IMG/VR virus record: IMGVR_UViG_3300010885_034740
Coordinates: 1 to 28,515 of that record
DNA: 28,515 nt
Strand: one strand, 5' to 3'
Source: a virus
Part shown: positions 4,019-5,157 of the stretch, in pieces
Layout of the letters: the number at the start of each line of letters is the position of its first letter
Numbering within the stretch: position 1 is the stretch's first letter
Program-made: the position numbers and the translations under genes
Notes under the pieces: model-generated
Told to the model about the DNA's origin: nothing
The model's database searches: none
The model's input: the letters and a program-made list of their open reading frames with translations, nothing else

Positions 4019-4213
4019 ATGTTCAACTTACCCGAAGCAAAGCCTCTTTATACTTGGCGACGAGTGGCTGGTGTGTGGCAACAGCAACCTAGTCAGAATC
4101 GGCGTGTTCCCGGTCGAGTTCACGAATTTGTTCAGTTGTGGCCCAGTATTGTTCAAGCGCGGCAAGCACGACTTGATCAGCTGCCGGACCCACTCGCTCG
4201 CGTAATCCCGTAA
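4019..4213 (+). CDS. Possible leaderless small protein, 64 aa, antisense overlap
   Basis: The frame opens with MFNLPEAKPLYTWRRVAGVW at the ATG where transcription from TATAAATA is predicted to begin. Its second half lies opposite the better supported minus-strand gene at 4089-4253. There is no ribosome binding site and no recognised domain; it is Arg/Gln/Pro-rich. It could be an artefact of codon structure on the other strand, or just the start of an antisense transcript. Low confidence. Confidence 0.25.
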   Translation: MFNLPEAKPLYTWRRVAGVWQQQPSQNRRVPGRVHEFVQLWPSIVQARQARLDQLPDPLARVIP

Positions 4214-4253
4214 GGTGTGCTTGTAATCTTAGTCGTTCAAACAGTATGGTCAT
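4089..4253 (-). CDS. Small helical hypothetical protein, 54 aa
   Basis: ATG at 4253 follows AGGAACACCCG; a longer in-frame version is rejected because it would start inside the promoter. The protein is mostly one or two amphipathic helices (MTILFERLRLQAHLTGLRER, then ALEQYWATTEQIRELDREHA) with an acidic end. No membrane segment is visible. A sigma-70 promoter with a perfect TATAAT lies 32 bases upstream of the ATG, so it is probably expressed early. Function unknown; its size and timing would suit a host-takeover or regulatory peptide, which is inference. Confidence 0.6.
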   Translation of the reverse strand: MTILFERLRLQAHLTGLRERVGPAADQVVLAALEQYWATTEQIRELDREHADSD

Positions 4254-4284: not shown

Positions 4285-4313
4285 ATTATACTACAACTAA
4301 ATACTTGTAGCAA
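4285..4313 (-). promoter_or_regulatory. Sigma-70 promoter for the 54-residue gene
   Basis: Reading leftward: TTGCTA (4308-4313), a 17-base spacer, then TATAAT (4285-4290). The -35 lies in the left arm of the 14-bp inverted repeat of the small RNA. The spacer contains the late promoter of that RNA on the other strand, so the two promoters overlap face to face. Confidence 0.65.
4297..4303 (+). promoter_or_regulatory. Predicted T4-like late promoter (CTAAATA) for the small RNA
   Basis: Predicted +1 is 4309, inside the first bases of a long perfect stem. The bases after the hexamer (CTTGTA) are identical to those after the motif at 5181-5187. Confidence 0.5.
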
Positions 4314-4437
4314 GAGACTGGTTCACCTTTCAACAGTGCCTGTCTTGATTCTCTCTAAAATCGACACAGTCTCTTGCTACCAATAATAACGATAAATGTG
4401 TCACATTGACCCCGGAAATTTCGGGGTTATTTTTTTG
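4309..4437 (+). ncRNA. Candidate small structured RNA, about 129 nt
   Basis: Bases 4307-4320 and 4367-4380 form a perfect 14-bp inverted repeat. Inside it, TGTC..GATT (4341-4350) pairs with AATC-GACA (4359-4366), giving a second stem with a two-base bulge and the loop CTCTCTAA. An intrinsic terminator follows at 4409-4436. A late-type promoter places +1 at 4309, within the outer stem. There is no coding frame or ribosome binding site. The 74-nt span is tRNA-sized but has no cloverleaf, so it is not a tRNA. It is a self-contained promoter-RNA-terminator unit of unknown function. Confidence 0.6.
4409..4436 (+). terminator. Rho-independent terminator of the small RNA
   Basis: A 6-bp stem (4409-4414 with 4422-4427) and seven-base loop are followed by TATTTTTTT (4428-4436). 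The opposite strand has no T tract, so it acts rightward only. Confidence 0.85.
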
Positions 4438-4441
4438 TGTG

Positions 4442-4448
4442 CTAAATA
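4442..4448 (+). promoter_or_regulatory. Predicted T4-like late promoter (CTAAATA) for the large RNA
   Basis: It comes right after the terminator at 4409-4436. Predicted +1 is 4454, one base before the GAGAGA that can close the large RNA domain. Confidence 0.5.
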
Positions 4449-4453
4449 TGTAT

Positions 4454-4952
4454 AGAGAGAACTACAAAGACTGGCCCCCTAGATAACTTGGCCGACGAAC
4501 CCGTTCTGATGTGTGACGGTAGTCAAATCGCTGTTGCTCTCACAGCGGCCTATACGCACTACCCTTGACCGGATGCTTAAAGAATAGTCTTATTAGTTAT
4601 AAATCAACCCTTGTGGTGAATCATAATAGATGGCACGAATAGACGACGATTTGCGTATTTGTAACAGTTGATTAAAGTGAGTGGGACAACACGCCTTTGA
4701 TGGTAACCCACACGAACTTGGACCGGATGTCTCTGTATCCCCAAGTTCTGCGTAGTTCGCAACCAAACAGGTGATCGCAAAACCTACCTGGCCCGTTGGG
4801 CGTTGTTATAGAGATCTTTCCGACGGAGACCCGTTGACAGAATCACGGCTCGGATAGCGTGATTCTGACCTCTCTCGACCCAATGTCTCAAAAGCAAAAC
4901 AGAAAGGCAACATTGAGTGGCGAAGACACTCAATAGATCTCGCAAGAGATCT
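4454..4952 (+). ncRNA. Candidate large structured noncoding RNA, about 420-500 nt
   Basis: About 500 bases lack any credible coding frame yet are dense in helices. GAGAGA 4455-4460 pairs with 4871-4876 and would close the domain. Inside are 4518-4523/4558-4563 enclosing 4529-4534/4542-4547; 4602-4608/4667-4673; 4681-4685/4707-4711; 4714-4721/4741-4748 with inner 4725-4728/4737-4740; 4768-4772/4786-4790; 4791-4794/4798-4801; 4821-4826/4831-4836; and a 10-bp stem 4838-4847/4858-4867. Size, late promoter and phage setting recall the GOLLD and ROOL large RNAs, but I cannot match either by sequence. The pairings were found by eye; none has covariation support. Confidence 0.55.
4912..4952 (+). other. 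Two adjacent perfect hairpins ahead of the DUF3820-like gene
   Basis: An 8-bp stem (4912-4919 with 4927-4934, loop GCGAAGA) abuts a 7-bp stem (4935-4941 with 4946-4952) capped by a GCAA tetraloop, a GNRA loop typical of structured RNA. They may stack coaxially. No T tract follows, so they are either the 3' end of the large RNA or the leader of the gene at 4975. CAATGT at 4881-4886 can instead pair with ACATTG 4910-4915, which would break the first hairpin. Confidence 0.6.
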
Positions 4953-4974: not shown

Positions 4975-5157
4975 ATGAAACCCAACTATCAGGAATACGC
5001 AACAACTCGAATGACTTTTGGTCGATATCGAGGTTGGTTTGTCAAAGATGTGCCAGAGGATTATCTCAAATGGGCAGTTGTAAACATACAAGATCAGGCA
5101 CGAGCCACTATGTTTGCTATCGAATTACAAAGAAGAAATCCCAAATTACGCCGATAA
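4975..5157 (+). CDS. DUF3820-like small protein, 60 aa
   Basis: ATG at 4975 begins MKPNYQEYATTRMTFGRYRG. The stretch at residues 13-33 (MTFGRYRG, then DVPEDYLKWAV) matches the short DUF3820 signature: [MT]FGKYKG, then [DE]VP..YL.W. This motif is found in small phage proteins and at the C-terminus of exonuclease X-like proteins, and its function is not established. The remainder is a basic helix ending in RRNPKLRR. There is no clear ribosome binding site; the start lies 22 bases after the paired hairpins at 4912-4952, so expression may depend on that RNA leader. It opens the rightward accessory block. Confidence 0.7.
   Translation: MKPNYQEYATTRMTFGRYRGWFVKDVPEDYLKWAVVNIQDQARATMFAIELQRRNPKLRR

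Follow-up and report, generated by a model that had tools for sequence, protein, structure and literature searches.

A conserved, structured non-coding RNA in an environmental virus genome is a longer, diverged relative of Polynucleobacter-1

In the literature that we searched, the RNA motif Polynucleobacter-1 (Rfam RF01718) is named only by Weinberg et al. 2010 (PMC2864571), who marked it as a possible cis-regulator ('y'). The element described here has the same order of helices and motifs over its first ~140 nt (P1, P2, P3, P4, P5 and CACUAYC), but unlike the Rfam model, which begins 3' of the 5' strand of pseudoknot 1, it runs ~350 nt further. Like GOLLD and ROOL (PMC12286853), it is a large, ornate and pseudoknotted phage or prophage RNA of unknown function. 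Unlike these RNAs, it is shorter, oligomerisation is without evidence and the window contains no tRNA; Rfam detected no match in the window to GOLLD, ROOL, raiA or HEARO, and the relevant motif proved to be Polynucleobacter-1. The abundant non-coding transcripts of the ICP1 phage and PLE satellite (PMC7567579) are likewise carried by phages and integrative elements; this is a likeness of setting only, and no homology is claimed.

The window, i.e. the whole stretch of DNA analysed (28,515 nucleotides), is a 28.5-kb virus record from an environmental sample, in which head and tail genes are present. A similarity search gave no informative DNA match to annotated phages or plasmids. Between a leftward gene (4092–4253) and a rightward gene for a DUF3820-like protein lie ~720 bases without a convincing reading frame. 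Comparative evidence shows that most of this interval is a conserved, non-coding and strongly structured RNA of the + strand (Table 1), whose transcription is inferred. The earlier note had read it as a large ornate non-coding RNA, and this is supported by covariation, pseudoknots and independent models, although not by transcript data. We rejected a coding alternative: the open reading frames are short on either strand and none is common to the relatives, and the homologous regions carry compensatory changes without a shared coding frame. A 107-aa antisense frame of one relative (L003) was also rejected as coding, being interrupted in the window.

Table 1. Coordinates of the RNA, its structural parts and adjoining features in the window
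Feature	Positions	Strand	Evidence or remark
Promoter-like CTAAATA element	4442–4448	+	predicted transcript start near 4454
Whole element, ~500-nt non-coding RNA	4454–4952	+	covariation; two independent covariance models
Pseudoknot 1, 5' strand GAGAG	4455–4459	+	partner is 4537–4541 in the P3 loop
Helix P1 (4473–4476/4490–4493)	4473–4493	+	94% of cells paired, 4/4 pairs compensatory (nine phages); 99% in 23 sequences
Hairpin P2, CCGU-UCUGAUGUGUG-ACGG	4501–4519	+	invariant in the set found by that motif
Hairpin P3, bears pseudoknot-1 loop 4535–4541	4529–4547	+	98% of cells paired, 4 pairs compensatory
Helix P4 (4552–4558/4652–4658), encloses P5 and P6	4552–4658	+	100% of cells paired, 6/7 pairs compensatory in 23 sequences
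Hairpin P5, 3' of conserved CACUACC, then GGAUGC	4563–4572	+	nine-phage and 23-sequence alignments
Helix P7 (GUGGG/CCCAC) within AAGUGAGUGGG motif	4681–4711	+	100% paired, compensatory changes; 99% in bacterial set
Hairpin P8 (8+4 bp)	4714–4748	+	compensatory change at 9 pairs (helices 8 and 9)
Pseudoknot 2	4730–4814	+	P8 loop 4730–4736 with 4808–4814
Hairpin P9, conserved GAUNGCAAAACCU loop	4768–4790	+	compensatory pairs, nine-phage and bacterial alignments
P12, perfect 10-bp hairpin	4838–4867	+	96% paired in nine phages, yet nearly invariant
Tandem 3'-end hairpins, second AGATCTC-GCAA-GAGATCT	4912–4952	+	compensatory pairs
DUF3820-like protein gene (PF12843)	4975–5157	+	Pfam E 4.5e-7

The folding energy of the element is only modestly unusual (z -2.2, with 5/100 shuffles folding equally well; z -1.1 on the minus strand). 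This is weak evidence, so that comparison was needed, covariation being the real proof. Two relatives found through their neighbouring proteins (L003 and L004) are ~80–84% identical over the region, and a profile of three sequences found L084, L048 and L104 among phages carrying a Dps-like gene; the 18-nt core CGTTCTGATGTGTGACGG is common to all of these and the window. Two further candidates (L007 and L228) were discarded as chance matches of motifs. In an alignment of nine phages (A4), 86% of the cells in helices are paired and 36 base pairs are changed on both sides, a number that 0/500 shuffles reach; the covariation score is 0.354 versus at most 0.092 in slid controls. The 5' domain, aligned in 23 sequences, has 94% of its cells paired, with P1 and P4 at 99–100%. 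In each of the three alignments there are more G-U than A-C cells (106 versus 33, summed), which fits an RNA made from the + strand. In a diverged relative (L269), P2 is replaced by CUGU/ACAG around an unchanged CUGAUGUG loop, and in 13 loci the second 3'-end hairpin sits 328–433 nt 3' of the core motif.

Both pseudoknots were tested without alignment, and in each case the true partners scored above all 2000 partner permutations (0/2000 match). Pseudoknot 1 covaries in 87 sequences, with 48 distinct helices, and pseudoknot 2, whose downstream strand lies ~80 nt beyond the P8 loop, in 36 sequences, with 27 distinct helices. Helix 10 appears weak in the nine-phage alignment because MAFFT places pseudoknot 2 one base off in some phages.

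These comparisons bear on the structural claims made in the earlier note from the letters of the window alone. Three hairpins, namely the 10-bp stem, the 8+4-bp hairpin and the GCAA-capped 7-bp stem (4935–4952), are exact and recur in relatives. A proposed closing helix (4455–4460/4871–4876) failed, being absent from 8/8 relatives aligned; the true partner of its 5' strand is the P3 loop. Of a proposed nested pair (4518–4563), the inner hairpin, P3, is real, and the outer GGTAG/CTACC helix is disrupted where relatives have GGCAG, GGCAA or GGTAA. The promoter placed at the 5' edge is supported by the enrichment and position of HTAAATA: 15 copies are observed in the window versus 7.1 expected, mostly 12–37 nt upstream of gene starts, and the copy before the RNA is not immediately followed by a gene. 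An excess of TAAATA is likewise seen upstream of the RNA in its relatives (42/93 versus a background of 4%). The promoter-like element is supported, although it has not been demonstrated to be 'late' in the T4 sense.

The relation to Polynucleobacter-1 rests on intermediates. The RF01718 model aligns over its full length to 4469–4604 (22 bits, E 0.0033), and the window does not meet the Rfam gathering cut-off of 37 bits. Eight viral relatives with the same core do pass it (46–66 bits); fourteen other carriers, including the Polynucleobacter chromosomes tested, remain below it. The consensus helices P1–P5 of RF01718 are paired in the window element, with P1, P3 and P4 covarying. We built two covariance models, whose E-values are rough. 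R1 describes the 5' half from 23 sequences (class A and bacterial; the window, L003 and L004 left out) and matches the window at 4456–4624 (63.1 bits, E 9.5e-14). R2 describes the 3' half from 18 sequences taken from bacterial chromosomes only, and its sole match in the window up to E 10 is at 4675–4826 (63.6 bits, E 1.9e-13). Consequently, both halves of the RNA are homologous to RNAs on bacterial chromosomes. R1 also finds 6/6 RF01718-positive loci searched (42–55 bits), and R2 matches two RF01718-positive loci. Homology of the window to Polynucleobacter-1 through these intermediates is thereby demonstrated: the window element is a diverged relative of Polynucleobacter-1, not a member by the Rfam rule.

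The core 18-mer is present in more than 119 IMG/VR stretches, a lower bound, and a 19-mer in 35 bacterial contigs, mainly of Polynucleobacter and Limnohabitans but also of Rhodobacterales and Erythrobacter. Motif scans catch members with an exact core only, so that the family must be larger than counted. Class C sequences (CTGCATTGTG...) were left out as too different, R1 weakly finding one of them (L192). L192, L200, L157 and L158 form a separate group in which the 18-nt core is kept and the flanks differ (CTGCATTGTGGATGTGC...); the R1 match of L192 is weak (28.6 bits).

Three contexts were recognised: Dps-type phages of ~35 kb, T4-like phages, and bacterial islands with tyrosine integrases and DUF6641. 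In the T4-like phages, the RNA lies 3' of a SegE-like gene, beside SbcC/gp46- and gp47-like genes, which we take, from reading the sequence by eye, to be gp46 and gp47; the baseplate and SegE assignments are from Pfam. Two bacterial islands adjoin a SoFic gene or a type III restriction system. Occurrence is sporadic: 26/121 genomes in a sample of the genus Polynucleobacter, 4/398 in a phylum sample, and a small minority of Dps-type phages. P. sinensis MWH-HuW1, a strain with the island, has three copies. Such varied contexts make a single regulated neighbour unlikely. No tRNA was found within the three 18-kb bacterial stretches checked. In three Polynucleobacter islands (L266, L267 and L268), genes for DUF6641, DUF6876 and a small tyrosine recombinase are conserved around the RNA; the cargo varies and comprises, among others, a SoFic-type gene and a type III restriction-modification system. 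In two other bacterial islands (L240 and L256), TGATAAATA...TATTTATCA inverted repeats lie shortly before the RNA and may be sites for a recombinase or a regulator.

The RNA behaves as a cassette. In L002, the flanks are ~91% identical to those of the window and the slot of the RNA contains a different sequence. That slot (L002 4243–4960) comprises a 151-aa open reading frame without Pfam match and ~260 nt of other non-coding sequence, and ends in the same tandem 3' hairpins (AGATCTC..GAGATCT).

Upstream of the element, positions 4297–4437 of the window (+ strand) probably encode a second, smaller RNA with its own TAAATA element and a terminator-like hairpin (4407–4437). Its closing helix, AGCAAGAGACTG/CAGTCTCTTGCT, has a differing counterpart in L002 and L004 when judged by eye, and was not recovered by folding of the alignment. 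The 5' end of the large RNA (TAGAGAGAA) has a complement in an interior segment of this smaller RNA, TTCTCTCTA, and their pairing would be in competition with pseudoknot 1; in L002 and L004, there is complementarity to the respective next leader.

The conservation, fold, strand, distribution and cassette behaviour of the RNA are established. Its mode of action is not, and we consider a free-standing, trans-acting accessory RNA the best and a likely reading, in which transcription, trans action and a protein partner are inferred and no target has been identified. An RNA of ~500 nt would be transcribed from the phage's own TAAATA-type promoter; its 5' end would dock into the P3 loop and the P8 loop onto its downstream strand, and the resulting compact body would expose conserved single-stranded motifs (the CUGAUGUG loop, CACUAYC and GAUNGCAAAACCU). 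As an accessory cassette of unrelated phages and integrative elements, it would most likely act in trans, as a scaffold or decoy binding a host or phage factor, and the adjacent DUF3820-like protein may join it in that role. We favour this reading because contexts differ, occurrence is sporadic and the slot in L002 holds an open reading frame and other sequence instead; trans action is inferred from context only. The DUF3820-like gene close behind the RNA in several class A phages speaks against it, as this arrangement would also suit a leader.

The strongest rival, which we nevertheless regard as unlikely, takes the RNA for a cis-acting 5' leader, either riboswitch-like or protein-binding, with the DUF3820-like gene under its control. 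In its favour, the RNA ends 22 nt upstream of the ATG at 4975, a DUF3820-like gene follows on the same strand in 8 phage loci (+455 to +678 from the core motif), and Polynucleobacter-1 itself was listed as a possible cis-regulator. Against it, L003 carries the RNA but lacks a DUF3820 gene, and a separate TAAATA element precedes the gene that comes next there; the genes that follow the RNA in bacterial islands and T4-like phages are different ones or are encoded on the opposite strand. While a DUF3820-like gene follows the RNA in the 8 phage loci, one related locus devoid of the RNA (L105) was seen to have it among 95 loci scanned. The gene is a possible partner or regulated gene, partnership being an inference. 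It is very improbable that the structure acts as DNA, as a recombination, replication or packaging site: bacterial copies do lie near tyrosine integrases, but the G-U excess favours a + strand RNA, and the pseudoknots, together with a promoter-like element that is enriched at the 5' end, likewise speak against a DNA site. A mobile RNA that splices or cleaves itself (intron or ribozyme) is equally hard to sustain, since in spite of the ornate fold and the mobile, sporadic distribution there is no Rfam intron or ribozyme match, and the element is intergenic, not inside a gene, without an embedded maturase or homing frame.

Beyond the trans-acting accessory RNA that we prefer, a bolder interpretation is conceivable and cannot be excluded. 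The element may belong to a hitherto unrecognised superfamily of large RNAs that unrelated phages share with defence-carrying integrative islands. Such RNAs would assemble with DUF3820-type proteins into a ribonucleoprotein, or form an assembly of RNA only, and be used as weapon or shield where mobile elements and hosts are in conflict.

Polynucleobacter-1, a short orphan motif since 2010, is thus only the front part of a full-length RNA that contains two pseudoknots. Its carriers comprise several kinds of phage as well as integrative islands of freshwater and marine bacteria, and many members fall under the present Rfam cut-off. With a defined transcript, whose expression is as yet inferred, a fold and hosts accessible in the laboratory, the role of large phage RNAs becomes testable.
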